From Heliocidaris erythrogramma (lineage: Eukaryota; Echinodermata; Echinoidea; Camarodonta; Echinometridae): DNA of 64,000 nt. A program made the translations under genes and the position numbers. The stretch's first letter is position 1, and each line of letters begins with the position of its first letter. The DNA lies in assembly GCA_025617745.1 (NCBI GenBank), contig CM046868.1, positions 18,418,615-18,482,614 on the forward strand, in the 5' to 3' direction. Shown here in pieces: positions 3,301 through 61,663 of this stretch. The notes beneath the pieces are model-generated. The model did not search any database, was not told the origin of the DNA, and worked only from the letters and a program-made list of their open reading frames with translations.

Positions 3301-6300
3301 ACCGACCTGACTATAGCAGCCACCTGTCTATAGCGGCCGCTTTTTCCGTTTCCCTTCGGTGGCCGCTATAGACAGGTCTGACTGTATATTGATTATTGTT
3401 ACTAGAAAGCCATTTTGTTTCACTTCTCTTTTTCAGAGTGTGACTTGTATGACTGAATACAAAGCAGACTTCAAACTTCCAGTCATCTTCCCACCTGAGG
3501 AGCCTAAGAATGTGTTAGCAGAATGGCTCTCAGCGAAGGGCATACACCAGTATCACTGTGCAGGTAAATTTACAGATCACATCGGCTTCCTTTGTATGTC
3601 TAGAGGCCTGGGGCGGTATTCTGAATACTATATTATCTTTTATGTTAAGGAAAAGTATGTTAATTGTGATAACAAATTGAAATTGCGCGCAATAAACACA
3701 TATCATTGGTGGTTGCGCAGATGTCTCGGTTGACTTTACGCGGGCACAGCCATCTTTACGCAATCATTAACCAATGACTTGTCCCGATTTTGATTTGTTA
3801 TGGCAATTAACATAGTTTTACTAACATAAAAGTTAACATAGTTTTCAGAATACGGCCCCAGTTCACATATGACCTGGAACTGCCTAAAAATTCATCGGCA
3901 AAAAAAGGGAAAAGAAAAATTTACATGTAAATGAAAGAAAAGTGGGGTGAAAACAAGTACAATGTACTTGCACGCAACAAAGGCCCCTAAGCATACTCCC
4001 TTATGTGTTGGTGAAATGCGAAGCACATTACTTTTGTGTCCTTTAATTTTAGTGCAGTGATTTACTGTGTCTTGCGTGAATGAGACTTACAGAAATTCCT
4101 GTCATCATGCATAGGCCAGGATAGATTCTCAGCAAAAAAAAATTCACTTGACCTATTTATAATACAGTGTTATTTCTTCTAACATCCTGTTTTGTTTGCT
4201 TTATATGATTTTTCTTTTCCATATGTGAGCTACATGTATGTATTGTTTAAAGTTACTTTTTCAATGAAGTGATTTACTGATTTATTCTTTTCACGCTTAG
4301 TCCATGCTGTGAATAAGTCATTAATTGTAGGTCAGAGTTGGTATTCAGTTCAAAACGGCCATTAGCATTTAGCTCGGCTAAATAAACTGGCATAAAATCG
4401 TATTCAGATCAAATCTAAGTATTGCACTTTAGCAAGCTACATTTAGGTCAAAATACTTACTGATAACCATTGTGACGTCACACAGCCAGTCCAAAGTTAT
4501 GCGCAATAAATGTGTCGCTAAATGCACTCTTATATAATTTGCTTGTGCACACTTTATACAGCTCTGTGTATGTATGAAAGCCATATGCCAACCAATCAAG
4601 GCCTACAAAGTAATTGTCTTAAGTCTGCAAGTGAGCTTTCCCTTGACTTTAACTCAGCCCAAAAATTAAAATGAATACCAAAGTTGCTAAAGTATTTTAT
4701 CTCAGCCAATAAACTATTAAGTAAAATACTCATATTTCTTAAGTAAGTACTGAAATGAATATGGGCCCAGAATTATGTGTACATGTACTTCCTTTTTCTT
4801 TTATTAGGGTCATCCAGTCCTGTTTAGAATGTCATGGGTGTTTTTTTTTATTCTCCTTGTGGTATTTGAAATGTAAACAAAGAATAACGCAGAGAGTTTT
4901 TATGCCTCCGCCCACCGAAGGTGGGTGCCGGAGGCATTATGTTTTCGGGTTGTCCGTCCGTCCGTCCGTGCGTGCGTCCGTCCGTGCGTCCGTCCGTGCG
5001 TCCGTCCGTGCGTCCGTCCGTGTGTCCGTCCGTCCCACTTCTCGTTACCGCGATATCTGAAGAATCATTTGAGGTAGGAACCTCAAACTTGGTACTAGTA
5101 TGTATCCCCATACGAAGATGAACTGATTAGATTTTGGGGTAAGTAGGTCAAAGGTCAGAGGTCACAGAGGTCAATTTACATGAAATTACATAAGAATTCT
5201 TGGTTTTTAGCACCGTTACCACGATATCTCAAGAACTATCTGAGTTGAGAACTTCAAACTTGGTACCAGTATGTATCCCCATACGAAGATGAACTGATTA
5301 GATTTTGGGGTAAGTAGGTCAAAGGTCAGAGGTCACAGAGGTCAATTTACATGAAATTACATGGAATTAGTGGTTTTTACCACCGTTACCGCGATATCTC
5401 AAGAACTATCTGAGGTGAGAACTTCAAACTTGGTACCAGTATGTATCCCCATAGAAAGATGAACTGATTAGATTTTGGGGTAAGTAGGTCAAAGGTCAGA
5501 GGTCACAGAGGTCAATTTACCTGAAATTACATAAAAATTCTTGGTTTTTAGCACCGTTACCACGATATCTCGAACTGTTTGAGGTAAGAACTTCAAACTT
5601 GGTACTAGTATGTTACCGTATACGAAGATGAACTGATTAGATTTTGGGGTAGGTAGGTCAAAGTTCAAAGGTCACAGAGGTCAATTTACATGAAATTACA
5701 TGGAATTAGTGGTTTTTACCACCGTTACCGCGATATCTCAAGAACTATCTGAGGTGAGAACTTCAAACTTGGTACCAGTATGCATACCCATATAAAGATG
5801 AACTGATTAGATTTTGGGGTAAGTAGGTCAAAGGTCAGAGGTCACAGAGGTCAATTTACATAAAATTACATGAAATTACTGGTTTTTAGCCTTGTTATCA
5901 AATATTTCTAATTTTATATGAAAATGAAATGAAATAAATTTTTCTGTCTCCTGTGCATTTTAAGTGAAAAGATTTGTCATTTTGTTGGACCAGTCCTTTT
6001 TAGAGTGTACATGTATGCCATACATTTCCAATCTGGTGATGGCGGAGGCATAAATTCCGACCGCGCGCGGTCGAATATTCATCTAGTTTTTTTTTTTGTC
6101 CCGACTGATGCAGAGAATTACATCTCATTTCTATTTGCTGTCTTCTGTTTTTTTTCACTGACTAATATAGAGACTGAGAAGTATGCTCATGTCACCTTCT
6201 TCTTCAATGGTGGGGTGGAGATGCAGTTTGATGGTGAAGAGAGGAAGATGGTACCCTCACCCAAGGTCGCGACCTATGACCTTAAACCAGAGATGAGTGT

Positions 6301-6319
6301 GCAAGGTGTTGCAGATGAG
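400..6319 (+). CDS. iPGM exons A-D (exon map)
   Basis: The exons are 400-578, 1143-1346, 3437-3563 and 6171-6319. Donors are CAG/GTATCA, ATT/GTAAGT, CAG/GTAAAT and GAG/GTAAGG; all introns end in AG. The first exon begins with the last two bases of a split codon. Exons A and B join in phase 0, as do B and C, while C and D split the Glu codon of AETEKY. Exon A carries GRYYAMDRD, exon [10 protein letters not shown], exon C MTEYKADF and FPPEEP, and exon [12 protein letters not shown] and [13 protein letters not shown]. These are the conserved iPGM blocks in their usual order, without an internal stop. Confidence 0.94.
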
Positions 6320-9300
6320 GTAAGGTGAACTTCAGGGCCCAGTGTCTTTAACAGTTGCGATTGATTCAAATCGATGGCAACTTGATGATATCAATCACAA
6401 GACTGTACTGAAGTGAGGACTTTAAGTTAGGGAATTGATTGGCTGACACGCTATCAATCCGTATCAACTGCAATTTCTATAAGAAGGGCCCTAGAGCTAC
6501 GTACATGTACTTGTATTGGCTATTTAAAATTCCATATTTAGAAAATAATTTACTTCCTTTACATCAGAGAATTAAATCCAAACTACCTCTTACTTCTTAT
6601 AAAGCACTTCATGTGTACCCAAGGAAGAGCTGGTCTAGTGGTACGGTTAGCTCTCTGTTTTTGCCTTCAAACTGAATTTGATGGACTCTGGGTCGAAACT
6701 GAGCCATGTTTTATGGATGGTGATGTTAAAGGTGGGTCCTCAGGCTTGAGTGATTGATACACATCTGTAAAAACTCAAATACACACACACACACACACAC
6801 ACACGTTTACATGGCTTTACTTCCGAGGACAACTATTGTTCCTCTATTGTTACTCGTCCTCGGACAGTCGACGGAATAAGGCATAAATTCATTGTTCGAC
6901 GTTCGAGGACTATTGTCCGCCTTCCGAGGACCATTGTTGTCATGATTTTTTTTTTGTTCTCTGTCCGAAAATGTCCTCGGACATAATGCTAAACAAACGC
7001 ACACACACTTTTTTTTTTTTCTTTTCATAACTTTTTTATTCCTTGATTCAGAATTTCAAAATAAATATTACAATTTAAGCATTGATTACACAGTATAATT
7101 CAACATGGCAATATACAATATATAATACAATTCCATACATGCCATTCATAAATAACCATAGTACAATTAACTGAACAAGGTATAGATTAAAATCATGAGT
7201 AATGAATTAAAGTATATAGGGCAATTGTAACAATGATTGTTACAATAATAACTTTTTTTCATAATTTTTTTTTTTTTATTCCTTAATTCAGATTTTCAAA
7301 ATGAATATTACAAATTAAACATTGATTACACAATATAATTCAGCGTGGCAATAGACAATACATATAATTCCATAGCATGCCATTGACTTCATAAATAAAC
7401 CATAGTGCATTTAACTGAACAAGGTATAGATTAAAATCATAGGTGACAAATTAAAGTATATAGGGCAATTGTAACAATGAATATTCTTTTTAAAACCGTT
7501 TGTAATATTATCTTGTATGTCCTCCTTCCGTCCAACATTCAAAATAAGTCCATTTTTTTAGATGTAGACTTAACTTATTTCGAGCTATTGCTTTTTTCCG
7601 TTCATTATCTTTACTTTCTAAAAGTGCATTATAGATTTCTTTCTTTGTTGGGGGCGTTCCTTTTGATCTCGCATTGTATATCATATATTTTATGAGTATA
7701 ATTAAGTGGTTAATGTACATATGTTTTTCTGATTTTCCATCTAAGCCAACTAAAATTTCCTCCCATTTTAAAGTATTTAAGTGCATCAATTTCATTTGTT
7801 CCCCAATTTCTTGCCACAATTTTCTAACCAATTGACACTTCATAAACAAGTGGTTGTATGCCTCAATTTCCTTTCCACAAAAAGAACATAAGTTAGATGA
7901 TAAAAAACCAAACTGATACAATTTATCATTACAATATAGGATACTATGTAATAATCTAAACTGAAAATCACGTAATTTCCCATCTAAAGTGCATAATCTC
8001 GGGGTCAAAAAGCGAGTTGCAACTCACACACACACACACACACACACAAACACAAACACACACACAGGTACCATCTATTTAATTCAATTCAATTCAATTC
8101 AATTTTATTTTACCAAAGCAATAAAAACATTATAAATACATACATACATGGAATATATACATTGGTACAGTAAAATATAAAAAAGTTGCTTGGCAGGTAG
8201 CAGCCAGAAAGGAAGCACCCCTTATATGTGGCCGACCTTAGAAAGATTTAATAAAAAGTTAAATGTACGTACCAAACATTACAAAATACAATATTACATT
8301 CACACAAAAAAAAAATACACAACAACGTGCCAGACGTATAATTAAACAAAACAAATAAAAGGTTCAAATCAATCAATAATTTGCAAGAATAAATTCTTTT
8401 AACTTACTTTTAAAAACATTCAGCGATACTGACTCTTTAATTGAAGAGGGAAGGGAATTCCAAGTGATAGGTCCTTGGTATATAATCGATTTTTTAAACA
8501 AAGATGTACGCAAATGAGGCAAGTGAAAATTCATGGCATTTCTTGTTCTATGCTTATGAATATTACAGTTTAGACTGAAATAAGTAAGAAGTAACTCAGG
8601 AAGAAGATGTTTATAACATAAATACATGATAATTCCTACTTGGTATAAGTACAAATCATCAAAACGCAAAATTTTGAGTGAACTAAATATAGGTGATGTA
8701 TGGGCAAGAAACGAGGCATGATCAATAATCCTAACAGCACGTTTTTGTAATGTAATCATTCTATTCAGAGAGGTTTCAGATGAGTTACCCCATACAATAA
8801 TGTTATAATATAAATATGGAAGGATAATTGAATTATATATCATTTTTAGTATAGTCTTGGGAAACGTTTTAAGTCCATACATAACACCAATATTTTTAGC
8901 TAATGTATTGCATATGAAATTTACATGAATTGACCAATTTAATTTATTATCAATCATTATACCAAGAAATTTTAGTGAAGACACCTGCTTAACCTGAGAA
9001 CCACACAAATCTATAACAATATCATCAGTATTACATTTTCTATTTGTAAACACCATAAAGTGAGTTTTCTTAATATTTATTGTTAACTTGTTTTGATATA
9101 ACCATTGGGAAATTATATTAATTTCTCGGTTGAACGTAGTTTGAAGAATATGTAAGTTTTTATTAGATAAGAAAATACTAGTGTCATCGGCAAAGAGAAT
9201 ACAATGCAAAATATTGGAAATATTACAAATGTCATTAATATATAAAAGAAATAAAAGAGGGCCAAGTATAGATCCTTGAGGGACACCACATTTGATTGGT

Positions 9301-12300
9301 CGATAACCAGATTTTTCGTTATTAATTATTACCTGCTGCTTCCGATTTGAGAGATAGCTTTCAAAAAGTTTTAATGTTATTCCCCTTATTCCGTATAAGT
9401 TCAGTTTGTTAAAGTAGAACGTTGATGATTTTAAATATTGGCTTAATACTTATTATTGCATAGATGGCATAAATTAAACAAGGTTATCCAAATTCAACGC
9501 TTGGAAACATTTGAAGTAATGATTATTATCAATTATAAAACGGTAAAATACAGCCCCCGATATAGCAGCTGAAGAGCTCCTCGAACGCTGCTGAGATATG
9601 TGACGACACACCCTGGACCAGTCCTGGCTAAGCAGACGATGTCCCATAACATCTTACACATTTTTCAGAGCCTATTTTGTCATCTCCTCTTCACTTATTT
9701 CTCTTCCTTCACTAGCGTCAGTCTTAATGTTAGTCTGTTGCCTCACTCTTAACTTCGTGTATGGTATTATTTTGATGAAAAATGCAGCGTTAAAAAAATA
9801 AAGGAATCAGTCACTTGTAAACAAAATAAGACGCCATTGTATTTTCAGCTGTTTGCACCGGGGCATGTTCGGCGTTTCAAGAGGGAACGAATACCATCCT
9901 GCTATTATTCGGAGGGCTTTTCAATTTGAAAGTGGGGTTTATTTCATTGATCATTGACCCTTCTCCTATGTATTTACAATCAAACGGTTTTAGCTATCAG
10001 AATCAGTTTCACTTTCCCTTTATAATGGTGTGAAATAAGGTCATGTTTAAATACACCAAACTCTTTATAATTTGATAAATAATTGCATTGCAATTACGTT
10101 CATTCATTATAGGACGTCGTCTGCTTAAGCAGGATCGATCCCGAGTGTGACGACATCAAAACATCGCTATATTTCTGGCGAATCCTCGGATATTCCAGAT
10201 GCTGAGAAGAGCTTTTATTTGTGTTGTTTTTATAATCACCAGATACGCAGTTGACATAAAACTTATAAGATTGCCATCTGTAAGCTTCCCAGTTTCTAGT
10301 GATACATTAATTGCCATATTTGTGATTTTCTTTGAATATCTACTTTAAGCAATATACAATGGTCTAAGGTATCAAAAGCTTTTGATAAATCTAAAAACAA
10401 ACCAACCATTACTTCTTCATTATCAATAGCATGTACGGCTTTATGGATAAAATTGATTAATGCAGACGAGGTGGAATGTCCTGCCCTGAAGCCATATTGA
10501 TTATTACTGATGATATTGCACTTAGATATAAAGTTATATAGACGATTATAAATACATTTCTCTAGTATTTTGGAAAATATTGTTAATACAGATATTGGGC
10601 GATAATTAGACATTATTTCAGGAGTACCACTTTTAAAAACAGGGGTGACTCTTGCTATTTTCATTTGATCAGGAAATATACCTTGTTCAAGACTCTGATT
10701 AAATATTGCACATAATGGTTTTACAATTAAATGTATCACACGTTTAATAACTTTAACATTAATCCCATCAAACCCAGCACTAGTGTTAGGTTTAAGGCGA
10801 TCAACAATATTTATGATTTCTTTACAAGTGATAGGTTTAAAAAATGCAGTCTGTTCGTTCATTTGTATATTTTTGGCATGATAATTATCACTACAATTGT
10901 TAAATGAACGATTAAAATCATATCCAATATTACCAAAATATTCATTCATTTTTTCACAAATTTCTTTATTATCAGATATTGATTCATTATTGCACATGAT
11001 TTTTTTACAAACAACCTTTTTATGTTTTTTCCCCAATGCATGATTTATAACATCCCATGTTTTCTTAACATTACCTTGAGAGTCATGTAATCTATTCGCA
11101 TAATATTGCTTTTTAACAAGAATAATCATATTTGTTACTTTATTACGAAGTTTCTTGTAGACATCTTTTCGGTATTGTGTAGGATTTTTTATATACATTT
11201 TATACATACGACACTTTTTATTACACATTTTTCGCAATTCGTTTGAAAACCATGGTTTATCTCTACGTTTACATTTAATAGGAAAACAAACATCATAATC
11301 ATTAATGAATTCACTTGTGAAGTTATAATAATTAGTATTAACATTGTCATTATCAAGTGACCATTGTGTCAATTGCAACATATGAACAAAATTTAGAATA
11401 CTCCTTTCATTAATTACTCTTTTAACACTCTTCATTTCTGTATTTACAATTAAAAAATCAGAATCGCAAATACAATAAACAGGAAAATGATCAGAAATGT
11501 CTGTAATAATTATCCCCGATCGGATTGAACAAGTATCATTAGTTATAATGTTATCAAGTACAGAAGCAGATTGTTCGGTAACACGAGTGGGGTATTTTAT
11601 AAGAGGAAACATTGAATGAAGCATTAACAATTCTAAAAAATCTGTTACAATTTGGACCTTACCAACGTTCAATAAATTCATATTAAAATCACCCATCAAA
11701 TATAAAATACTTTTCTCTCTATTTACAGTCTCAAATACATCAGTAAGATATGAAAAAAATCTTGTGTTTGGTAGCAAGGGGGTCTATAGATAACACCAAG
11801 TAATATAGTAGAGTTATGATTATGGATTTCAATAAAGAGACTTTCAGTGAAAACTGTGTTTACATCTAGATCAAGACGACGTTTGTAATTGATGTCAGTC
11901 CGAATAAAAATACCAACACCTCCTCCACGCTTATTCTTCCTGTTATTATTCATAAATTCATAATTATCTAGATTGTACAAAGAGAGTGAAGACTGGTCAT
12001 TAATCCATGTTTCAGATATACCGATAACGGAAGGTTGCATTGAAAGATTACTCAAAAATAAAGACAAATAATTGAAGTTTTGACATAAGCTTCTACAGTT
12101 AACATGGAAACAAGATAACTTTTTAGTAATATTTTCAGATGAGTATGTACTTGACACAAAATTATTATATTCATTTGGTGTGTAATATGCTTCCACATGT
12201 ATAGGACCATGATCACTTTCAGAATCTGCTGGAGTTAAAAATTCTTGCAAAGTACATAAATCAATATCATTAAGACATTTGAAGAAACGATTCTGGCTAG

Positions 12301-17555: not shown

Positions 17556-17559
17556 TTAA

Positions 17560-20582: not shown

Positions 20583-23500
20583 CTAATATCTAAGTGGAGT
20601 ACTTGGCGTGGAGTCTGATCTTGGTCCCGATACTTGAGGGTAGATTCCTAGGACATCATAGACCTCCTTCAGCACCATTAAGACTGTGTCCTCAGATTCC
20701 CTGCACACACAAATGAGAAAAAGAGAAAACATCTTTTAAGTCTGTCATTGCAAATATGAACTTCATTTCTTGTGTGGTTTTGTACATTATCTTGACAGTT
20801 TCCTGAATTTTGAAATGATTAAAAGAAATGGCCGATTGTCAAATACATCAGCATCAAACACATCCCCTTTTTTATTTAAACATTCACTTCGAACTTAACT
20901 TTTGTTGAGGCATCATTTCGGTGCAATGGCTGATTTTAAATACAAGTCAGCCCATCCCCCACCCCCCACTCACACACAAAAGCATATCTGTCATTCTGAA
21001 AAGCAGCCATGCAACTTTTTTGAATGAGGCAATAGAAATTAACTATGGCTATCCAAATCAATATAGCACTGAACAATACCAGTTTTATCTGGGAAGCTGA
21101 AAAAAAGCAAGTACACACTTTAATGCTTAATTTTTTTCTGATGTACTGTTTGATAGCATTGGCACACTGATCTGCTTCAGACATGGAATCAACCTGTTTC
21201 AAGACCAACCCTCTGTGAGGCCATTTACTAGTTAACTACTACACAGAGTCTGAATCTTAGATTTTCTTACCAGTAACATGCATGACTGCTCATAGCAAAG
21301 AGGTATTCATTGAAACTCTCTAGTGGAGCCTCTTGTAGGACATAATCAATACGCTTTCCTCCATTTAACTGGCCAAGTCTTAGGTTCTCTTCTGCAAAAG
21401 AAAAGAAAAAAACATCAAATAATTCAGTTTGCATTACTATGAACATTTGATTTGTTTCATTTGAAGTCACAAATTTTCTTCTTCTACAATTACAATGGAG
21501 TTAATAATCAAATAATCTGCAGAATCTAAGAAAATATAAACTAAACAAAATAGCTCTATTACACAAGTGCAAAAATGTTTATTAAAAACAATATCTTTTA
21601 GATCGGATACAAAATTTCTCAATTAAAGAACTAAAGGTTCTACTTGTATACAAAATGGGTAGCTCGTAGGATTTATACTTGAAATGCACTGTGCGCGGAT
21701 AATGGTTGCCAGAGCTAAAGCCAGAGTAATAATTTCCAATGCTCTTTAGAAATGCACAGGGATATCATTATTGTACCATTACATGTATGTGATATGTGCT
21801 ATACAAGAACAGAATATCATATCATTATTAAGGTTGTAGATCATATTTTCGATGGCACTCTTAAATCTGCTGAGATGACAAGGTCCAGTCCTTTACTTGT
21901 GATATGAATATTTCAATATCTTAAAGCTACCTTGCTCGCCCGACTGTCCGTCGGCTTCTGCTTGCTGATTGGCCAGCTGTTGTTTACTCAGTTGCTCAGC
22001 AACCGCTTCCATCTGCTCATCAGTGACACTGCTAGGATCAGTCTCTTCCTGTTCCTCCTCGGTCCGGTGTGCTAGGGCAAACTGATGTAGGGTGGCCCAC
22101 GTCTTCTTCATCGACTCGATCAGGCTGCGCTTGAGGTCCGAACCAAAGTGGGACAGGCTTTCCCGTAGTTCTGTTTGAAGGAATAGATAAAATTATGAAC
22201 ATTTCCAATAAATAACAATGTAACTCAATCTTTGCAAATGGATGTCACCAGTTCAGTCGATGACTGGTTGGTGCCCACTGGCTGACACATAAATCAAGAA
22301 GGAAAGACAATCTCTGCTTGTCCAAACTCATATAGCGGAGCAAAGCTGTATTGATTTTTTTAAAAGGGAAACAGGATTTTTGCTTAAGGAAATTAAGGCA
22401 ATTATGATGTCTTAGGCTTCTGTCATTTATATATTTATTATATCTTATTTATCCAGGGTTGCCTCCTCAGTGGATAAAACACTGTTTCACAAGAGGGCCT
22501 TGAACAAACAATTATATCACATTCATTCCTTCTGTTAGATCTTCTAATATACATGTATCACTGTGGTTTCTTTTGGTCATTATTTTTCACCTTTTTAGCA
22601 ACTTCAGAGCTAAAGTGAGCCAAATAATTCCTGATATATTTACTACATAATTATGGTATCACTAAATATTTATCCTAAATCATTTGACACAGTTTGGCGT
22701 GAAGGCCTATTATCATTGGCTTGGGATATCGGTATTCGTGGCAGAGTTTGGAATATTTTGGATAAACTATATCATAATGTGCGATGTAATGTTAAGTTTG
22801 GCGATATTGAAACAGATTTCTTTGATATTGATGAGGGGGTCAAACAAGGTTGTGTTTTATCACCTGTTTTATTCTGTATATACATTAATGAATTATCTAA
22901 GATGCTTCAGGCTCAAGATGTAGGTGTCCATATATTTAATACAAAAATAAGTTCACTCTTTTGGGCTGACGATGTCGTCTTAATTGCAGATAATGAACGT
23001 GATTTACAACATATGTTGTCCATTGCAGGTGATTTTGCGAAGATGTGGAAACTTGATTTTAATTACGAAAAATCAAATATTATTGTTGCGGGTAAGCGCA
23101 CTAATAAAACTAAACTTTGGCCACTTGGTGATCTTCACATTACTGAGGTCGATAGTTATAAGTATTTGGGATTTCAAATTTCAAGAAATCAATCTGGCCA
23201 TATACATGCCAATGATGTTATCAGAAAAGGTAATCGATTAATCGGTTATATTAAATCCATTATTAATGGTCAGGATGATTTTAACAGGGTTTACTATGGT
23301 AATGTTCTTTGGAAGGCCCTTGCGCTCCCCTCAATTAATTATGCATGCGCGTTGTCGGCCTATAGTGCTAGTGACTATAAACGACTTGAAAACCTTCAGC
23401 TTCAAATGGCGAGATCGATTCTTAAAGCGCCTAGGAACACACCCTCATTATCCTTATTAGGCGATTTAGGGTGGGATAGCATTGAGAATATTCACAATGA

Positions 23501-26273
23501 AAGAAAGGTTAAGTATTTTGAGAGATCAATGTTACTGGAGGCATATGGATGGCCTAAACTTTTGTTGAGAGCGCTGTTTAATTTTAATGATAACGATATT
23601 CGGTTAAGGTGGAAATGGTTTGAGTCGGTTAAGGGAACTCTTACTAATACTGGTTTCGAACACATTTTTTCACTCGATCATCCCTTTAACCAACTATGGT
23701 TTAAATCATTTAAGAATATTAATCACGAATTGTATAATAATGACTGGTATAATAATGCATGTTCAAAATCATCTTTACGTGATTATGTTAACATAAAGAG
23801 AGAGCCTAAATTAGAAAGTTATCTTCTCGATAGCTTAGATTTTTTTTTGGTGCCAGCCTAAAGTTCAAAGCTCGGTCGAATACACTGCAGCTTGATGCCA
23901 AAATTAGTATTTGGGATACCAACAATTCAGGTAATTGTAGCTTATGTAATTATGCTATTGAGGACATAAGACATTTTTTGTTCACATGTCATAAACTAAA
24001 CGAGATTCGATCTGAAGAAATGCACACACTTGAACGTAAACTATGTGATTCAGATCTAGTTTCCCTCTGGGAAATGTTTATGTGGAATGATATTGATGTC
24101 AAACTATACCTTATTTTAGGAGGCGATTGCACTCAATTTATGCCTATGATTTCCAGTAACTTAGCAGTTGCTGCTCAAATAACTTTTGATGAGTTTTGTA
24201 AAGCGTACCTGAAAAGAGCATGGAAACTAAGATCATCAATCAAGTCGAGTCCACTTACTTAGCATGTGTATAGATCTATATGTGTGTATATATATATACA
24301 TTTTTTTTTTTGGGGGGGGGGGGGTAATTTTATGTTCATTTTATGTTACAATATCTTTTTGTGTTATTATATAATTATGTGTTCTATTGTATACGGATGC
24401 ACCATCGGTGAGATGGGTGCCGCTGTTTCAAAAGCGATTTCCAAATAAATAAATAACTAAATAAATATCCTTAACCAAATCATCTCAAGACAAAATCTAA
24501 ACCCAGCACTGTTGTCAAAGCTTCGTCCAAATTTGAGTTTAACAAAGGAAAATATATTGAGGTCTAAGTTGTCCTTTTGTTTAACATGACTTACATGTAA
24601 GTCCTTGTGTCAGGTTTAATGAATTAGTGGAATGCAGGCCTTCAAATTCAATGACCACTACAAATCTATCCTCAAAGAAAGAAGTACATGTACGTGTAAG
24701 CCACAGTACATCTCTTCCAGGCAATGTACATTTGATTGACAGGTTGTATATTACTCAGGAAAATACCAAGAGTGAAACTGACACAAAAACAGGTGCACAT
24801 GGATTGTAATTGACCATTTGTAAATTACAGGAGAAAGCTACATGAAATCAACAAGGGAGGTATTTCTTGGCCAGAATTTGTAAAGGAGAAGGAATGTGTA
24901 ATTAACAGCAAACCCACTTGCTTGAAAAGACTGTGCCTCTGAGTACAAGAAACAGAGATGCTGAAACTCAATAGGTGACTTCAAATATTTATTACAGAAA
25001 ATGCTTCCATCCAGAAGTTAACATGGAAAGTTTCCAGGAGTTATCAGGAATGGTTAATTGTACACTTTAGAGACAAAATTAAGTTTAATGTCATAAGATG
25101 GACAGGCTTTCATTTAGACCTGCTCAAGAACAGACATGTGGATGCAAAATTAAATCTGAAAACAGAATTTCACAGCCTGAGAAAATCAAAAGCAAAATTA
25201 GCCAGAGTTATATTTTAGAAGACCAAACAGAAAGAAGATACAAATAAAGAATGAAGAAGATATATAAAGAGAAAGAGAGAGGGAGAGAAAGAGAGAGAGA
25301 GAGAGAGAAAGAAAGAGCAAAAGTGAGAGAAGAGAGACAGATTGACAGAGAGAGAGAGAGGGCAAAACAAAGAGAAATAAAGAGAAAGAAAAAGAGAATG
25401 AATGTGGGAGTGTGAGAGTGACAGAAGGGAGATAGAGAAAAGAGAAAAAGAGAGAAAGTGGAAGGGGAAAAACAGGGAAACATATGTCACCTAGATGAAG
25501 TCGTTTCCTTCCCTTATGATGTGGCATGAGAACTGGTTTGATATCTGAGAGGGTCGGGTGAATCAGGGGCTCAATACGATATGCCACAGGGTCAAACTAG
25601 AAAGAAGTGATGAAAACACATGAAATGGAATTTTAGAGAAAACAATTGCACTAGATATACATGTACTGTATCTTTGACAAAAAGTTAGAAAACTGACATA
25701 TTTATGTATATCAAATGACAGCAAAATAATAGTACGATAAAGAGAGAAATTTTTAATACTACAGATATAGTAATACTATATATATGTATATATTTAGGGA
25801 CCTTATCAATTTTACAATTTGGGGGGTTAACAAATACCTTCTAAAATGAACTTCTAAAAAAACATTCCAAATTTGTCTGACACTTGTCTCTCAGAATATG
25901 CACAAAAAGGATGGGTGTTTTATTCACAATCAAAACATTGATATCCCCCCCCCCCCCAATTCAAAATATATGTGGATAGTAACACCAAGTCTCATGTCCA
26001 ATATTCTTAAAACAAGATATGAAAGTACTTACAGGGTGGAACACATTGAACATGTACGGGCAGGTCGGCAGTCGGTAGTTCTCACCCACTCTTCCTACAC
26101 CTCTAATGGTTAGAAACATACCAATGGGAGAACCCAAGGCAAAGAAACATGCTGGCTGGAAGTCTAGCTGAGGATAGTTGACAAATGGCTGGCCAACACC
26201 TGGATTATACAATGTAAAAGAATTCATTTCAATATGTTCAGGGACATGTGGATGTGTGTACATTGTACGTAAG

Positions 26274-26308
<35 letters not shown>

Positions 26309-29300: not shown

Positions 29301-31905
29301 CTGCACATCACCCTAATGCACAGCACTCAATGTAATTTAGAGTGGATTTATCACAGTCAAAGTGAATCATACAGGCAGGGAGAATGCATTCAAAAATATC
29401 ATGCTTGCTATCTGTTAGAAGCCATTTTATGAATCTTTGTATTCTACAGTTAGTTCAAAACTATTACACTGTATTAGGACAAGATAGCTGAATTAAACAT
29501 GCAAATATTTCATACATACGCCAAGCAATAGTAGTCAAATTGGCAGTGATTAGTCTTCAAGCACAGTTGTTGTTTCAGTTTTTTCACAGTTCAATTACAC
29601 TCCGAATATTGAAGCCATCTACATGAGGGTTCCTGTACTTTTTTATTTAATTTAATTTTCAAAATTTTCCAGTAACTTGTTTGGTATTTCGTTTAGACTT
29701 TAGCCAATCCTACGTTAGGAAAGCTGACCATACCAACTCTAGGAAAGCTATACAAAAGGCTACTCTAATGATTACTGTTATTAAAGAAGGAAGAGAACGG
29801 GCCATACCAGACTCTCCATGTCGATTCTTTCTTCCTCGAATTTAGGGAGCAGGTCTAGGAGCCCCATGGATTCCAGAGACTCCTCAAGACTCATCACGGC
29901 AGGCCCTTCGTCCAGCGTAGCCCCACTGAGGAGGGACGCACTGCTGCTGGTTGGCGTGATGGATTCAGCTGAGGGGGCTGGGGTTGGGGGCTTGTCCGTG
30001 AAGATCTCGGATTTGATGAGATTCTCTTCCGACTCTACCTCGTCACCATCTTTCTGGTGCTTGAGAAGGTCAAAGGCAATGAGGGAACCTAGAGAAGAGT
30101 TACAAAAAAGAAGACTTTTTATGCCTCCGCCCACCGAAGGTGGGTGCCGGAGGCATTATGTTTTCGGGTTGTCCGTCCGTGCGTCCGTGCGTCCGTCCCA
30201 CTTCTCGTTACCGCGATATCTGAAGAATCATTTGAGGTAGGAACCTCAAACTTGGTACTAGTATGTATCCCCATACGAAGATGAACTGATTAGATTTTGG
30301 GGTAAGTAGGTCAAAGGTCAGAGGTCACAGAGGTCAATTTACATGAAATTACATAAAAATTCTTGGTTTTTAGCACCGTTACCACGATATCTCAAGAACT
30401 GTTTGAGATAAGAACTTCAAACTTGGTACTAGTATGTTTCCCTATATGAAGATGAACTGATTAGATTTTGGGGTAAGGAGGTCAAAGGTCAGAGGTGACA
30501 GAGGTCAATTTACATGAAATTACATGAAATTCTTGGTTTTTAGCACTGTTACCACGATATCTCAAGAACTGTTTGAGGTAAGAACTTCAAACTTGGTACT
30601 AGTATGTTTCCCTATATGAAGATGAACTGATTAGATTTTGGGTAAGTAGGTCAAAGGTCAGAGGTCACAGAGGTCAATTTACATGAAATTACATGAAATT
30701 CTTGGTTTTTAGCACCGTTACCGCGATATCTCAAGAACTGTTTGAGGTGAGAACTTCAAACTTGGTACCAGTATGCATACCCATAGAAAGATGAACTGAT
30801 TAGATTTTGGGGTAAGTAGGTCAAAGGTCAGAGGTCACAGAGGTCAATTTACATAAAATTACATGAAATTACTGGTTTTTAGCCTCGTTATCAAATATTT
30901 CTAGAAGAGTTTGAGCCATCAACTGAATTTAGGCGGAGGCATATAGGAGACGCAGTCGCATTCATCTTGTTTATTTGATGATTTATTTTACCAGTAAGTA
31001 CGCAACCAAGCAGACCTACGGCACTAAGTCCTATCCAGGGGACTTGTTAATGACGATTAATGCCTTATCAAAGGGCACTAGCACATCTACTTGGTTTGAA
31101 CCTGGTACCTCCCGGTTACATACCATTGCTCTACCACTGAGCCATTGTGTCTCCTCAAAAACAATATTTTAATACTTCTTGATAAATCAGATGTAAAAAT
31201 CAATTGTTAATCCATCAAAACAACCTTTCAAGTGTTTTTCAGAAAAGTCCATGCAATAATAACACAAACAACTTCTTGTATTCCATGTACTTCAAGGACT
31301 GAAACAACCTACATGTACCATCCAACATCCACAACATAACAGCTAATAACTTTTCCTTTCTCTTCTACATTCAATTAGAAAGTTTTATTTTCTCCTACAG
31401 TAGTACCTTACACCAATATAAATAAAACAAGCAATGGACTCACTCTCAAGGTTAAGGAATTACAGATGCTCACTACAGGATGAATCCCATAATGAAATAA
31501 ATTCAGCATTTCCATTGCTAGCAATATATTTCTTCTGTACCAAGACCTACTCAAGACCTACTCAAGAGAGAGTAACAAACAACAGAGAACACTCCTAACC
31601 CTCCTCGTTTCAGGTAAACTATAGAAGATGAGAATTGTTAAATTTAATGAGAACAAAAAACACACAGGTACAAAGCATAAGTATTACACAACCCACCTAA
31701 ACTATGTCCAATAAGGGAGACCTGACCACAGAAATCTGGGTTTCTCTCTCTAAATTTGGCATATAATTTGTTGACCTCTGAGCAAACCACCTCTGCTATC
31801 TGCTGGGCATAGATGGGACTGGTATAGAAGAGAATGTCTAGAAGTGTCTCATTGGTGAAATTCCGTAAACGTGTGATGCTGGGTAGAGTGATACGCTTTA
31901 GTCGC
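20583..31905 (-). CDS. SEC23IP: SEC23IP exons 9-17 (lipase elbow, SAM and DDHD part)
   Basis: The exons are 31697-31905, 29808-30088, 28755-28850, 27977-28151, 26033-26199, 25491-25596, 21931-22170, 21271-21391 and 20583-20700. The glycine after the catalytic Ser-Leu is split by the exon 9/10 intron. Exons 10-11 hold the SAM domain ([24 protein letters not shown]). Exon 12 is a Lys/Glu/Gln-rich linker. Exons 13-16 hold DDHD landmarks [39 protein letters not shown] and [15 protein letters not shown]. Exon 17 ends in a TAG at 20585-20583. Confidence 0.95.
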
Positions 31906-40510: not shown

Positions 40511-40550
<40 letters not shown>

Positions 40551-41835: not shown

Positions 41836-42188
41836 ATTCGCCGGTTCTGTTCCGCTCGATGTGTACACGTCACGTCACGTTTCGTATCCGCATAAATTAA
41901 GAGGTCAAAGGTCGATTTAAATGTCCGGATTGAATTCCCGCGCCACACAATGCGGATTTCGCGCGGGGAATGGATCATGTGTGCCACTCACTGTGTGTGT
42001 AGGCATTGTTGTTCGGTGGGACATTTAAATTGTGCTAGCAGAGAAATAGATGCAATGTACATTAGGATTAACTTAGATCGCATGTTATTCGCCTGCTGCT
42101 GTTGTTTTGGAATCTTGGTGGAAGGAACAGGTTCTTGATTTAATTACTAGTATTTGTGGTAAATAGTTATATCAGTATCAGCTTCACC
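41836..42188. promoter_or_regulatory. shared SEC23IP/MCMBP promoter interval
   Basis: This 353-bp GC-richer gap separates two divergent start codons, so it should hold both promoters and both 5' UTRs. Visible candidate sites are CACGTCACGTCACGT at about 41866-41880 (overlapping CRE-like half-sites), AGGTCAAAGGTCG at 41902-41914 (DR1-like), TTCCCGCGCC at 41935-41944 and TTTCGCGCGGGGAA at 41957-41970. The last two are E2F-like and face each other. There is no clear TATA box. E2F control would suit MCMBP, a replication factor, but is inference. Confidence 0.7.
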
Positions 42189-48300: not shown

Positions 48301-51300
48301 AAAATTGTTTTATTAACTCGTTTCGCGTAGGCTAGCCGTAGGATACATTATTTTTCAATTGAATAAAATGCAGCAATGCATCCGGGCCACCTGAAAATCC
48401 ATTTGGCCACCTGGATTTCATGCTCAAGTGGCCCTGCTGGCCACCTTAAGAAAAAGTTAATGGCAAGCCCTGAACTACAATGTAACAAGGGTCCAGTGCA
48501 AATGCCCCCCTCCTCAAAATGTTATAATATAGTTCTATGGGCCTTACACCCCACCCCCCCCCCCCCCCCCCTCTGCACCTAAATTTTACTCCTCACCCCC
48601 AGAATCAATTCTGAATGGAGTCTTGAATCCATGCTATGGTTATTTAATGTAAAAACTTGTGGAGTCCCTTTTATTATCAGTTGCATCTGTGTTGTTTATT
48701 TTTCTGTGCAGGTTTATGATCAAATGGATGTCTTTAAAGTTGCAGAAATGGTGGAGTTTGTTGGGGTCCTCTCCGTTGATCCTTCATTAGCTCATTTTGC
48801 AGAATCAGAACAAGAGTAAGTTTGTTGTTTTTTCCAGCAATACCTTTATACTTCAAAATACTCAGATGTGGAGAGCACTTTGGCTGTATAAAGCTTTAAA
48901 AAAGGTCCTCACAAAATTTTAAAGTGCAGTACTTCAAAAAGGGAGAGAAATAATCTTGTAAATTGTCACTGATGAAAGTTAACAGTTAATAACTTTACTT
49001 CTAGTTTATTCACATTAATCCTATTTGTCAGAAATTTGAAGTAGATGTACATCTTATGCTTGTCTGTTGGGAGACTAAAATACAGTGAAACCTGCGTTAG
49101 CAACCACCTGTATTAAAAGATCACCTGTCTACTAAGACCACATTTTCTGTTTCCCTGGAATAGTGTTTCTCATTGAAATGTGTAATAAAGGAACCTTTAC
49201 ATCAAGACCAGCTGTCTATAAAGACCACTTTTCTTCTCTCCCTGATTCAGTCTTTGTACACAGGTTTAACTGTACCATTAAATACTAATGTGATCAGTGG
49301 CTGCAGATATCAACTATTTTGCTCATTTCTGCATATATATAGGTCAAGTATAGGTGATGCAGTGGAATCTATGGAATGCATAGAGGAGCAGAACGCCCAT
49401 TCTCCACCTCCGTCTCTGGTTCCGAGGTTACACATGATCGCATCCCGCAAGCTCTCCCACATCAACCCACACATCCCACCTGATATCAACTCCATCATTG
49501 GAAAGTCATGTAGGTTTAACGCATCCAACACAATTTATCTTCTTTCGGGCTAAATAAATTGCCTACCTTCTTCAAATTGACAACATTTATACATTTCTTT
49601 CATTCTTAGTTTAACAGGCAAGCATCTTATTCCCCATCAGTTACTCCATCTTTCTTTCCTCATATACATACAATTCTTTTGGACTTTAAGCTCAGTTATA
49701 AGTTCTTCAACTTTCCCTTCAGTTTATTCACATCTTTTTGATCACTGATTGTTTTGCAATGTAGGATATATTCTCTTTAAGTCATTGCATTACCTGGTAG
49801 ACTGATTTGCAAAGGTATTTCAATATCATTCATACTTCTTTAAACCAAATTTGCTATTAGTAAGTGGAAGGCTGGCCAGATGCTTACTTGTCAGTTGTCA
49901 TAGCAACAACCAATGTATGCAAACTGGTTTCCATCTACAGAGGTCTTAATTATTATAGATATTACAGGGTTTGTTACTAGGGATTCTTGCAAAAATCTTT
50001 TCTTATACATTGCCCCTTAATTGAAAGATATTCTAATATTGGACAGAGGATGTTGATTGGGTAAATACACTTGATGTGAATTTTCCTTATTTTCCCAGTG
50101 GTGGAGAACATCTTAAAGGAGGCAGGTATCATTCGAGACCAGCTGAGATGGCTTCTGAGTCAAGTCCTTCTATGTGATGCCCTAACAGCTGATTATCTCA
50201 TCCTTCATCTTTTATCATCGGTGTAAGTCACCTCTTGAAATTTTGTATTATTACAAAATTACTACCTAGGGACATGTACCTCATAGGCACACTTTTTATA
50301 TCTTCCATGCTGAAACAACCCCTTGAAATAAATAAAAGCTTCCCTATTTGATGCTCAAGCACAATGAATAACAGCAAACATCTTTAGATTAGGGAGATGT
50401 GATTGGTTAAGCAGTATGGTAAGCACTTTGTCTTCACCTACGAACTGGCTTTGACGGACTCCGATCCAAACACAGTCATGGTAACAATAAAGGTTGGTGC
50501 CCAGACGTAAATACCCATATGATTGATACATGTCTGTGAAAATGCAGTCATACTTACAAACTCTGTCGATGTGGATTTTCCCAAATTTATTAATTTCTCA
50601 TCTTTTTCTCCCCCTTGCCTTTCAGGTATGCAAGGAGAGAGGTGTGTGCTCTAGGAAAGCTGAGTCTGAATCTAACTGGACTACCTCAAGATCCTGAGTT
50701 TATCACAACCCTCTACTCGTTGCTAGAACAACTAGTTTCCAAGGTGAGTCTAGGGTTGTACAACACATGCTCCACCAACAATTTCCTACAATAACCAGAT
50801 TCTTAATCTCATTTGTTGACACAATGCTATCCCTTACCCTGACCTTTACCCTAATAAATAAAGCTGGAATAAATGTTGTTGGAGCAAATGGTGGATAACC
50901 GAGTCTGGCCCATTAATATATGAACCAGAAAGATTTTTTGTCTCGCCCACCGGAGGTGAAGGCGAGACTAAGGGATCCAAATGTCATCCGTCCGTCGTCC
51001 GTCCGTCCGTCACAAACGTTATGACAGATAACTTTGCAACCGTCACTCACTTTTCAACCAAACTTGGGTTGTAGATGCACTGAGGGGACCTGCATGTTAT
51101 GGTGCCGTTGGAGGTCACATGATAAGGTCAAAGGTCATACGTTAAAGTTTACCTGCAAGACTCTCTTATGACAGATAACTTTGCAACCATCACTCACTTT
51201 TCAACCAAACTTGGGTTTTAGAAGCACTTGGGGGACCTGCATGTTATGCTGCCATCAGAGGTCACATGGTAAGGTCAAAGGTCATTTCAGGTCAAACATT

Positions 51301-54300
51301 ATAGTTTACCCGCAAGACTCTCTTATGACATAACTTTGTAAACGTCACTTTCCAACCAGTAATGTAGATATATGCAAGCATAACTTATGCAGATTTATGC
51401 ACTTGGGGGACCTGTTGCATGGCAACAGAGATCACGATATTTCTAGTTATCGCATGTGGGCGAGACAAATTATCGCTAATGCCTTGTTTTTTATCTGCAT
51501 TGTATGACTGGGGCAGAACAGCAAAATTTATGTAGTACAGTCAGACCTGCTTTAGCGACCACCTGTATAGAACGACCACCCTAATTTCTCCCGCAGAAAA
51601 TTTGCGTGTTTAGCAACTTTTATACAGCGACCACCCAATTTGCTTCCCATCAGGCGGAAAAATGCCCCCACAACAACCTCCAAACTCGGCGGTTGGCCGT
51701 CCACCGACCATTTACACAACAATAGAACTCAAATTCTAAGACATTTAGCACATCAAAAGGAAATTTTATTGCCTAAAGGGAACGTTTGTCACAATAATCC
51801 GGGGACAGGCAAAGTGTCTTTTGTTCGGAACTCACAATTGACCGCTTCGGCGTAGTTCTAATTGGACAGTTATACATTCACGATGCTAGACCCTACAGAC
51901 GAACAACACAAAAATAGAACTCAAACCAAATTCAAAGACATTTAGGATATTATCAAAAGGACAGCTACATGTAATTACTGAAAGGGAATGTTTCTTACAC
52001 ATTAAATGGATAATCAGAGTGTAGGAGACCAGCAAACAATGCATCTTTTGTTTCGAACACGCAATTGATCGCTTCGCCGTAAATCCCCCGCATTGATAAT
52101 TCAGCGCGGGCATGTCTGAAACAGGCTTGTTCGTTAACTATCTTTTCTAAAAGGAAAATAAATAATTTCAAAAATCTATTTTCTTGGCTAAGATTAATTG
52201 AAATATTGTTTTTAAACAATAAAATGTTTATTTCTTTTAAACTAATGAAGTTTAAATTTTTTACAGACAATATTTATTTTTTTGATAAAAATTTATTGAG
52301 ATCCCCCGATATTTAAAAAAAAATATTTTTAATCGATAGTAGAGAGGCTGAGCCCATCCGATCGCGATCATATCGATCATAGCGACCCATCGATGTCGGT
52401 ATCCTATAAAATGCGTAGCGATCGCATTAAAAAAAGAATAGCCCCAAACATAGAGAAGTCAATTGTATTATTTGATTAAAGTCTGTTTAAAATAATAATT
52501 TTTGGTTGTTGAAAAGTCAAAGTTGCCTGACTGCGATATAACACAAACCAACAAAAAATATATTTCAACTGTACCAAGGAGCTACTAGGCAGTTCATTAT
52601 CATTGCTTAAATATTGTCTGCTGTGATTTATCAACCACTTCATTACTGATCCCAATTTCACTACTCATGTTCAGTCTACTCAAGAACACTCTAATGGGGT
52701 GTTGCAAGAAAGTTGTAATTGATTGCAAGTTGCAACTGATTGGTACTGACCAATCAAAATTATTGTTGCAAGCGCATCTTCTTGAATAGGCAGACCCTGA
52801 ACCATTCAGAATGGTTGTTCTAATTTGCTTGACAATTTGCAATTGATTGCAACTTTCTTGCAACACCCCATAAGACACTAAGAACACTCATATCTACACA
52901 TTTTATGGCATTTACTTTATTCTCACATAATTATGAATGCAAAGTTAACTATTTAAAGGTAAATACAAACACATGTAGGCCTACATATAAAGATACATGT
53001 TAGGTGATGAACTTAATTTCCATTTTAAAAGAGCAAGAGTAATTGGGAACACGATAAATTATGAATTATAATGCTTAAAATATAATCATTATAATTTAAA
53101 CATTTAAAATATCAAGAAGCAAAAAAGTGGTCGCTGCAGCATCTGATTTACATGTAAATTTGCATATATAATAGGCCACCATCCCGCATCCATGTTTCAT
53201 TATTATTACTCGGATTTCAAATGTCCGCCAACCTGTCTATAAAGACCACCTGGTCATAAAGACCGCTTTTCTCGTTTCCCTTGAGCGGTCTTTCTGTACA
53301 GGTTTGACTGTACTATCAGTCCAGATTATAATGCTAGGTTTTGAATATTTGCCAATAGACCTTAGCTCATTGATATGTCATAGGCCTATAAAATGTTATA
53401 CCATTTCTGTAAGAGGATATAGACTACATAGATTGAAGTTTTCTAGCTTTATAGATGTTTTTAAAAGTGAACAACCTAAAATTTGAAAGTGTTTTACCCT
53501 TTGAAATATTGATCCTGGAAATTTGAAGGTAGTGTGATGTGAAGTGCATATTGGGTTTGTATAATTTTGTATTCTTGTTTTATGTTTTTCTTATATTGGT
53601 AAAAGTAATGTCTGTGATGTAACCTGATGTTAGATATTGTCATGCTACATGTACTATGTATTAAATGATATCTAACTTAATGCTTTGTCTCTCAATTCTG
53701 TCACTTAGTCCCACCTATTGCCTCTGACGTTAAGTAACATGAACAAGCTGAAATTGACACCCAAGAAAGACTACACAGCCAACAGGTTAAAAAGCGGCTT
53801 ACTACAGCTCACAGATCGGACACATCTTGTTTTAGATGAGACTGCTCTTCAGCCAGGCCAGCTAGATGCCAATGGTGAGTTTATGATTCTGAAGAATCTT
53901 TTAACAAATTTTCTGATCTTCCAAACAAATGCAAGAGCATGTATATATATATATATGTATAAGATTTACTAAGAATTGTTGAGGTGGAAAGTATGTCATT
54001 TATTTATTAAATTAAAGGGCAATCCAACCTTGGTAATAAGTTGATTTGTGTGAAAGCAGAAAAATAAGAAAAACAGGCTGGTGAAATTTTGAAAGAAATC
54101 GGACAAGGAATAAGAAAGTTATGGATGTTTGAAAAATGAGATCACTACATCTCTGCGAATCTCAAATTGGCAATTTGGTGAGTCGATTGTGACATACTTG
54201 TGGACAACTCTCCCATTTGTCGTACACAAATTTATCATTAATTTGCCGTTTTCTCCGAAGCACCTTTACCCTCGGGGCAGTACTCCAAATATATTGGAGA

Positions 54301-58330: not shown

Positions 58331-58339
58331 ACACACACA

Positions 58340-59526: not shown

Positions 59527-59778
59527 AGTCTATGAGAATGAGAAATTTCAGTAGTCAACAGTTTAACTCCGCATGACTAGATAGAACTCAAGGAACATGT
59601 TGTAATGCAGAAAATTTTCTTACTGGTAATATGGCTTTGATGCTGTAATAACTATTTTTAGGTCGTATACTATGTTAAAAGTTGTTTTTTTAGTTTCTTG
59701 AGGTTTTCAATATTGTTTGTTTTGCAGTTAGGAGTATATGAGACATATTTATCTATCCACTGTGGTTTTTGTATTGCA

Positions 59779-59916
59779 GGGCCCCCGTTTCATAAAACTT
59801 GATATCTATGACCCATTACAATAACAGTTATAAGCCACTGAAATACTTACACCTGATTGGCTGAGAGCAAATTAGTCATAGATATGTTATTGATAATAAG
59901 TTTTATGAACGGGCCC
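59779..59916. mobile_element. 138-bp MITE with GGGCCCGTTTCATAAA-type ends
   Basis: The left end GGGCCCCCGTTTCATAAAAC pairs with the right end GTTTTATGAACGGGCCC. It is AT-rich inside, and ATCTATGAC/GTCATAGAT is mirrored. The target duplication is unclear. Confidence 0.7.
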
Positions 59917-60571
59917 AGATTTCAGATAAAATGATAGCTTCTTGGTATTTAGATCGAGTGATGTGCAGATGTTAAGATCATTCATTATAACCATTACCAT
60001 TTGATTGAATGTGTCAGTTTATTCCTCAGAACATTTAGTTTAAAGTTATAAGATTACAGTGAAAATAAAGGATTTCTTGTCATCATATGAACATGTATAT
60101 ACTTAGAATTTAAACCTAAGAACATTGTGTGTCCCATACTTCCTTCCAAACATAACATTTCTAGTCAGCCTTTAATTCAAGAAGATGCATTTTTAATTTA
60201 TTTTATACATTACACAATTTCATGTTCCTTCTTTAACTTTCTACAAATCAATGAAACTATCTTTTAAAAAGGTAAACAGGATTTTTGTACAGTGTTTTCT
60301 ATGTGAATATGTACTATCACAGCAAACACTGAATTTGTATATTTGAATATTCAACAGGAATAAAAATGTATACCCTGTACATAGACTTCTAGAATAAGCT
60401 ACATAATGTGTCGTTCTTTAGTATGCAACCATTTGCAGTCAATTATATCTGTGGAAAATGTGTCGAGTGTATTATTGAACGTGTTTCAAAACTAGTCGAC
60501 ACAGAGCATGAATGCCATATTCGTAATACATTGTAAAACTTTTTTTGTAATTGTTCACAAGAGCTCCTTTT

Positions 60572-61663
60572 TATTGTATCCCCCGGCAGTATGCTGGAGG
60601 ATACTTTGGATTCAGCAGCGTTCCGCCGCCGCCGCGGCGTCACATTCTTGTGTGCACTCTAGCGGTCACATTTCTCAACAGATTTCTTTCAAACTTTGTA
60701 TGGAGGTGTATCTTGGTAAAATCTGGACACCTATAATTTCTGGTAATGCTGCCCGCAGTGTTCCGTCTATTGTAGGGTAAAAGACCATATTTTGGGGGAT
60801 AGTTTGTGTGCACTCTTGCGGTCACATTTCTCAACGGATTTTGTTGAAATTTTGCATGAATGCGACTCTTGGTAAATTCTAGAAACCTCTAGATTTTGGT
60901 GATGCTGCCACCAGTGTCCCGTCTTTTATAGGGTCAAGGGTCATACTTTGGAGAATGGCATGAGTGCACTCTGCAGGCCACATTCCTTGATGGATTTCTT
61001 TCAAATTTTGTATGGAGATGTATCTTGGTATAATCTACACATGTTTATTTTTTGGTGATGCTGCCCTTATTGTTCCGTCCTTTATAAGGCCAAAGGTCAT
61101 ATATCTTTTGTGCACTCTAACTTCCACATTTCTTGACGGATTTCGTTCAAGTTTTATATGGAGGTATTTCTTAGTGAAATCTCCACATCTTTAGTGTTTT
61201 CTGATGCTGCCCCCAGTGTTCCGCTTTTTATAGGGTCAAATGTCATATTTTGGTTGCATGCATTCTGGAGGACACATTTGTTGACTGATTTCTTTCAGAT
61301 TTTATATGGAGGTCCATCATAGATTACTCTAGACCTCTACAGTTTTTGGTGATGCTGCCCCCAGTGTTCCATTTTTCATAGGGTCAAAGGTCATATTTTA
61401 GTGGATATCTTGTGTGCGCTCTGAGGTCACATTTCTTGACAGATTTCTTTCGAATTTTCTATAGAAATGCATTATACTCTAATCTACACACATTGTTTTG
61501 GTGATGCAGCTCCTAGTGTTGACAATAGTCTGCGCCACTGACGGCAATCTCTACGCCATCCTTTTGTTTGAGGGAGGGGAGGGGGGAGGTTCTTTGTCCC
61601 TCCTTCGAAATGCTGCCAGTGCCGGGGATACATTCGCATTGCGCTGCAATGGAAATTTCTAGT
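60572..61663 (+). mobile_element. family-C hairpin/minisatellite element
   Basis: A hairpin at about 60579-60606 has arms TATCC and GGATA with inner GGCA/TGCT. It is followed by a CCGCCGCCGCGGCG block and about six tandem units with the word TGTGCACTCT (period 146-156 bp). The right end is AGTGCCGGGGATA near 61618-61631 and a tail ending ATTTCTAGTTTTT. DR1-like words: GGGTCAAGGGTCA at 60931, AGGCCAAAGGTCA at 61087, GGGTCAAATGTCA at 61233 and GGGTCAAAGGTCA at 61381. Units are more diverged than in family A, so the copy is older. Confidence 0.75.

Follow-up and report, generated by a model that had tools for sequence, protein, structure and literature searches.

In a 64,000-nucleotide window of Heliocidaris erythrogramma contig CM046868.1 (the window is this whole stretch, and all positions are counted along it), four tandem arrays carry a 13-base motif, AGGTCAAAGGTCA, which is a canonical DR1, that is, a direct repeat of RGGTCA with a one-base spacer. 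We propose that this motif is part of the central-repeat unit of HINE-type elements, a unit of two inherited boxes multiplied by rolling-circle transposition and unequal exchange, and we put the probability of this reading at roughly 0.75. HINEs are short non-coding elements that are thought to be moved by Helentron rolling-circle machinery. In the proposed unit, box 1 (around CAAANTTGG) would be followed about 57–77 bp on by box 2, which ends in the DR1; the families of units would have inherited both boxes from an old common repeat, and rolling-circle transposition together with unequal exchange would have multiplied it.

The window holds ten exact copies of the motif, all where the original prediction had placed them, and an exact copy was found in none of 100 dinucleotide shuffles of the window:

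5145, 5316, 5486, 5825, 30308, 30479, 30648, 30818, 51125 and 51272, plus strand: exact copies of AGGTCAAAGGTCA

Five near copies that had also been predicted are present, with one mismatch at 5655, 61087 and 61381 and two at 60931 and 61233; with up to two mismatches allowed, the window gives 29 matches against 1.86 expected. The arrays fall into three families, A (two arrays), B and C. In family A additional half-sites directly follow the motif, as had been stated, and the consensus motif of family C is GGGTCAAAGGTCA, likewise an RGGTCA DR1. The claim that every core unit carries the motif goes too far: the first C unit has a copy (at 60775) with three mismatches, and the truncated last units of B (~51340–51440) and C (~61500) lack it by eye.

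Because the anatomy around the arrays matches the HINE structure described for non-autonomous Helentrons/DINE-1 in the available portion of Thomas et al. 2014 (PMC4067079), we assign the four arrays, from their sequence, as the central repeats of four HINE-type (non-autonomous Helentron) elements:

4897..6086, plus strand: HINE-type element A1, with T-run, subterminal inverted repeats, 5′ hairpin, GTCC microsatellite, array and palindrome
4899–4912 and 6041–6054, plus strand: 14-bp subterminal inverted repeats of A1
4902–4937, 4952–5035 and 6058–6073: 5′ hairpin, GTCC microsatellite and 3′ palindrome of A1
6083–6086: 3′ end of A1, CTAG followed by T
5043..5890, plus strand: tandem array of A1, about five 170-bp units, motif at 5145, 5316, 5486, 5655 (one mismatch) and 5825
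30116..30969, plus strand: HINE-type element A2, with 5′ hairpin, short GTCC-type microsatellite (by eye) and array
30120–30131 and 30932–30943: 12-bp subterminal inverted repeats of A2; 3′ end CTTG followed by T at 30966–30969
30206..30915, plus strand: tandem array of A2, four 170-bp units, motif at 30308, 30479, 30648 and 30818
50934..51486, plus strand: HINE-type element B, with 5′ hairpin and short GTCC-type microsatellite (by eye)
50937–50950 and 51456–51469: 14-bp subterminal inverted repeats of B; 3′ end CTTG followed by T at 51483–51486
51125 and 51272: motif in the two motif-bearing units of B, 147 bp apart, with one further truncated unit
60568..61662, plus strand: HINE-type element C, with imperfect 5′ hairpin (by eye) and array, without a GTCC-type microsatellite (by eye)
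60575–60583 and 61624–61632: 9-bp subterminal inverted repeats of C; palindrome at 61637–61651; 3′ end CTAG followed by T at 61659–61662
60653..61520, plus strand: tandem array of C, units of 146–156 bp, consensus GGGTCAAAGGTCA, copies at 60931, 61087, 61233 and 61381

Subterminal inverted repeats are thus present in all four elements (9–14 bp: 14 in A1, 12 in A2, 14 in B, 9 in C), and the layout is shared, with a T-run and an inverted-repeat hairpin at the left and, at the right, the inverted left repeat followed by CTAG or CTTG and a T. T-runs at the element ends were seen by eye; HINEs are inserted at TT in T-rich DNA and make no target-site duplication. Perfect 5′ hairpin stems of 8–9 bp occur in three of the four (A1, A2 and B; C has none that is perfect), and a 3′ palindrome is clear in A1 and C. 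Set beside HINE/DINE-1 as that portion of PMC4067079 describes them, the likeness extends to subterminal inverted repeats, a 5′ hairpin, a 3′ palindrome in some, a microsatellite with central repeats, and, as far as the T-runs seen by eye indicate, T-rich insertion sites, whereas the DR1 in the central repeats is a feature of the present elements. Rfam at gathering thresholds gave no match, and hence no known ribozyme family, in the window or in three related stretches from bacterial assemblies (L005, L007 and L010, below).

Copy counts across the genome that the window comes from (1.064 Gb in 26 contigs), with the reversed pattern as control, gave 26,597 exact copies of AGGTCAAAGGTCA against 93, and 19,035 of GGGTCAAAGGTCA against 32. 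Perfect copies of RGGTCAAAGGTCA (both forms summed) number 45,632 against 125, or about 43 per megabase, which bears out the idea that transposable elements have spread arrays of DR1. As a sample blind to the motif we used (GTCC)4 sites, starting from the first 100 of the 6,974 in the genome, which all fall on contig 1, and keeping 40 of the 41 distinct loci beyond 3.3 Mb (the last was omitted, and loci before 3.3 Mb were excluded because loci there had already been chosen by motif). An exact DR1 lies within about 1.1 kb downstream of the microsatellite, on its strand, in 38 of the 40 loci and on the opposite strand in none; L087 and L090 are the two without an exact copy. The left end of family A or B, with at most one mismatch, stands 5′ of the microsatellite in 35 loci. 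Half-sites number 525 on the microsatellite's strand and 4 on the other, and their spacings are DR1 188, DR2 0 and DR3 113. These figures come from a sample that is mostly family A (A-type units in 35 of the 40 loci) and whose loci are not all independent, left flanks being common to L094/L096, L099/L100 and L111/L113. The members of these three pairs of HINEs, and of a fourth, L061/L063, lie tens to hundreds of kilobases apart yet by eye have a common left flank, suggestive of local duplications or of haplotypes left uncollapsed in the assembly.

The families had been described as unrelated and not alignable with one another. Compared in pairs with the motif masked they indeed do not align, the strict score being reached by 61 of 500 shuffles for A–B, 122 for A–C and 370 for B–C, but a comparison of several families reveals a second common box. 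Unrelatedness was not borne out: loci found via the motif include graded A subfamilies (L055, L064, L071, L072 and others), which link units of different appearance, and box 1 is common to six families. The same kind of locus gave B in L058 and L069, a divergent B-like unit in L039, C in L046, and a further family, F, with a 128-bp unit in L065. Our box search was unsupervised and one-per-sequence, with one unit each from A, B, C, D (from L007), E (from L010, reversed) and F; the DR1 was excised throughout, as were the neighbouring half-sites in A, D and E. Box 1 was recovered upstream in all six families with a score of 151.3, which none of 60 shuffles reached (mean 132.3, sd 4.7, maximum 147.2). 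It reads ACTTCAAACTTGGTACCAGTATGT in A, CAACCAAACTTGGGTTTTAGAAGC in B, CTTTCAAATTTTGTATGGAGATGT in C, CAATGAAAATGGGTGTGAGCATCC in D, CAATGATATTTGGTATGTGGGTGT in E and AGTTGAAAGTTGGTATAGGGATAG in F, and an example from the window is:

5421..5444, plus strand: box 1 of family A (ACTTCAAACTTGGTACCAGTATGT), its CTTGG core 57 bp 5′ of the motif at 5486

The core lies 57–77 bp 5′ of the next motif in A, A1, B, C, D and F, and in family E 65 bp 5′ of an inverted motif. A leave-one-out test of box 1 was set aside, as its boxes had been aligned by eye and two of seven rows were weak (239 of 1000 shuffles at or above the score for A1, 155 for B). From these sequences the families seem to be relatives that have diverged while retaining a two-box unit, and descent is the best explanation for the sharing of the motif. 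Results that the original prediction had named as refuting it are in part borne out: the families appear to be relatives by descent, and the 13-mer is not reliably better kept than the unit within a family (below).

HINE central repeats are a kind of sequence already known, and the oyster satellite Cg170 may contain box 1, which we do not count as evidence. Elements of the Pacific oyster offer a close comparison. In Cg_HINE, as given in part of PMC7492417, central repeats measure 138–181 bp and several elements have GTCY/GTCC microsatellites; in Cg_HINE/Cg170/HindIII, the same part describes related flanks with different monomers and two segments common to dissimilar monomers, which we liken to box 1 and box 2 by description, not by sequence. 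Similarly, the accessible text of PMC5139131 presents the bivalve satellites BIV160/Cg170/CvA as a large family whose monomers diverge but have two well-conserved motifs in common; the likeness to box 1 plus DR1 in the units of six families is again one of description. New here are the perfect DR1 in 38 of 40 motif-blind loci, the tens of thousands of copies, the shared two-box unit, and similar arrays in animal-type DNA from two other sources. Among the matches listed in the open-access literature, none tied DR1 or nuclear receptors to Helitron, satellite or tandem repeats, and text matches to the motif or half-site were primers or one promoter only.

The two other sources came from a scan of prokaryote assemblies for two exact motifs 143–173 bp apart, which gave nine stretches. 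Three of them are HINE arrays of animal type. Two, L005 and L007, lie in the assembly of the bacterium 'Glo_2'; the third, L010, whose mussel origin is putative, lies in that of a gill symbiont of Bathymodiolus brooksi. Their position in bacterial records (PIVJ01, CAHJWD02) points to host contamination. L005 and L010 have the same HINE anatomy as the window elements, with subterminal inverted repeats of 11 and 10 bp, respectively; L007 has no perfect inverted repeat of at least 10 bp at its ends. The others were set aside: L004 and L006 consist of copies across runs of N, and L008, L009, L011 and L012 are short repeats in bacterial contigs. Three scans of viral contigs, which gave three unrelated contigs, none, and two closely alike, showed no visible animal elements. 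Contigs from bacterial and viral collections (L001, L008, L009, L011) carry an AGGTCAA-type motif, in short-repeat runs in the last three.

In L010 the HINE ends and box 1 point in one direction and the DR1 in the opposite one (TGACCTTTGACCT on the element strand). The case comprises a single element, whose two exact copies have no others beside them in that assembly, and either an inversion or an independent gain is possible. It departs from the oyster elements as the available part of PMC7492417 describes them, array and flanks always having the same orientation there, although a later review, in the portion accessible to us, reports oyster central arrays in different directions (PMC12628747).

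These observations bear on two alternatives. In one, box 2 would serve the element itself, as a signal in replication, strand transfer or array recombination. The motif does recur unit after unit in elements that spread, its strand is fixed in the 40-locus sample, and conserved motifs have been proposed as satellite junction signals, for BIV160 and Cg170 without statistical support in the text available of PMC5139131. In the putative mussel element, however, the motif is inverted relative to the termini and box 1, and two of the 40 sampled loci do without an exact copy; we regard such a signal as improbable. The other alternative, only slightly better placed but still unlikely, is that the clustering of half-sites arises from slippage of heptamers: repeats of the AGGTCAA type would gain and lose seven bases at a time, and DR1 pairs would recur without any receptor. 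Extra copies in steps of seven are seen in L080, L099 and L100, and the bacterial contigs L008, L009 and L011 carry the motif in short-repeat runs; bacteria are not known to have nuclear receptors. Against slippage, many units have a single DR1 at a fixed place between unrelated flanks, spacings of three are common too, and heptamer runs are absent from the window's B and C units. A reading of the two boxes as the A and B boxes of a Pol III promoter was considered as well but not adopted. The two-box HINE unit inherited by descent is our preferred reading.

How well the motif is kept within a family bears on a further question, whether the DR1s work as docking sites. The conservation of the 13-mer, when measured against the unit background, was not reliably better, and its rank varied with the sample. 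Within the window alone, 13-base stretches reaching the motif's value number 28 of 160 in A, 37 of 145 in B and 25 of 134 in C, which is weak evidence because the copies are too young and too few. In motif-independent samples, scored by shift-tolerant exact match, the motif came 11th among 130 stretches in A (29 elements) and 23rd among 130 in A1 (10 elements); in B it was 9th among 156 and in C first among 146, each time from 20 units. By column identity, the motif was equalled or surpassed by 79 of 144 stretches in A, by 59 of 144 in A1 and, when A subfamilies were compared with one another, by 87 of 144, the alignment being poor near the half-sites; in B it stood 20th among 136 and in C first among 131. 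When C was sampled again, from an anchor on box 1 that lies 88 bp upstream, the top rank was lost: the motif came 58th among 109 stretches, or 29th when each cluster was represented by a single unit. In this sample the second half-site is broken in eight of 20 units, which read GGGTCAAAGCTCA, and four units have no recognisable copy. We therefore dropped the idea of special conservation of the motif within families. Family A keeps CTGATTAGATTTT best, immediately 5′ of the motif, and the genome contains 16,682 exact copies of CTGATTAGATTTTGGGG. Within families the DR1 does not stand out; it forms the 3′ end of a longer stretch that is conserved. In the 14 most divergent A-type units, the exact motif is kept in a fraction of 0.57 against 0.05 expected from mean divergence, a figure biased both by the way in which these units had been identified and by rates that vary along their length.

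Across the window's families A, B and C, the DR1 is what remains exact (A and B) or differs by a single base (C); we left D, E and F out of this comparison because they had been found through the exact motif. A DR1 that stays exact or nearly so between diverged families would imply some constraint, present or past, for which predicted binding by host nuclear receptors of the COUP-TF, HNF4 or RXR type is the most obvious candidate. COUP-TF, HNF4 and RXR receptors bind DR1, and the host was found to encode DNA-binding domains like those of all three, the receptor types that the original prediction had named: the genome gives 57 zf-C4 matches, partial ones included, 15 of 16 fetched stretches yielded a readable domain, and three DNA-binding domains compared with solved structures (PDB) matched COUP-TF1, HNF4-alpha and RXR-alpha best.

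That the DR1s are working docking sites, bound by host receptors and kept by selection on the element or by host co-option, is nevertheless a tentative proposal that we think somewhat doubtful. Receptor docking on the arrays is possible in view of the host's domains, the abundance of RGGTCAAAGGTCA in perfect form, the half-site spacings in the 40 loci (DR1 and DR3, without DR2), the retention in divergent A units despite its bias, and the inversion in the putative mussel element, which an orientation-free site would allow. Alu repeats provide a precedent, being bound by HNF4 and RAR according to the parts available of PMC3252374 and PMC1785376. There too, as those parts have it, a mobile repeat multiplied nuclear-receptor sites across a genome, but Alu is a retroelement with published binding by chromatin immunoprecipitation (ChIP), whereas here the sites are predicted and form tandem DR1 arrays in rolling-circle-type elements. 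Docking is opposed by the neighbouring 13-mers of A and B, which are kept equally well or better, by the eight of 20 C units (in one sample) whose second half-site is broken to AGCTCA, and by the strictly one-stranded motif in the 40-locus sample, since a binding site needs no such strand. A bolder version, which we hold to be somewhat less probable, is that HINE central repeats form an old lineage, present in several animal groups, that has carried the DR1 as one of two conserved boxes, in either orientation, because receptor binding would help the element, for instance by opening chromatin in the germ line or early embryo.

Machinery that could move such elements has its traces in the genome. 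Helitron_like_N gave 103 Rep-domain matches, some of which lie in open frames longer than 3,000 residues. Among eight Rep loci fetched, L118 and L120 give IEFQSRGSSHVH, close to Helentron Rep motif 2, with S where the Helentron motif published in the accessible part of PMC4067079 has P or L; L117 has RGLPHAH, the Helitron form.

Several points weigh against the two-box HINE unit. No autonomous partner with matching ends was found in the eight short Rep loci or in L125, a further 5.6 kb upstream of one of them, and the mobility of the HINEs here is predicted from their anatomy. A 3′ palindrome was not found in A2, and B has only a 5-bp stem. Box 1 was not significant in pairwise motif-masked alignments of A, B and C; the six units of the box search were hand-chosen, one per family, and with D, E and F found via the exact motif, families without the motif are under-sampled. 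Finally, conservation of the DR1 within families is mixed.

Some further features of the window lie outside the arrays, among them a lone DR1-like site:

41902..41914, plus strand: AGGTCAAAGGTCG, one mismatch, outside any array

By eye it stands about 290 bases 5′ of a reading frame beginning ATGCCGGGAATAGATGACTGG, and it is a possible candidate, judged from position and letters, for a single-copy receptor site near a gene start. Shortly 3′ of A1, an exon-like stretch at ~6170–6320 (plus strand) appears from its translation to resemble cofactor-independent phosphoglycerate mutase, so A1 seems to be intronic. Long reverse-transcriptase-like frames at 8373–11783 (minus strand) and 22635–24262 (plus strand) appear by eye to be remains of non-LTR (non-long-terminal-repeat) retrotransposons, and fragments at 32344–33406 (plus strand) resemble a Tc1/mariner-type transposase (by eye).

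In the oyster, much of the dispersed DNA of satellite-like type sits in HINE-type elements, according to the portions available of PMC7492417 and PMC8268682. If one of the two short motifs shared among such otherwise dissimilar satellites is a nuclear-receptor site, the question of why it is shared would become testable with standard chromatin assays. If the DR1 is such a site here, the H. erythrogramma genome would be a large natural case of transposons flooding a genome with one class of perfect receptor site, and tens of thousands of perfect, phased sites could titrate receptors or seed new regulation.

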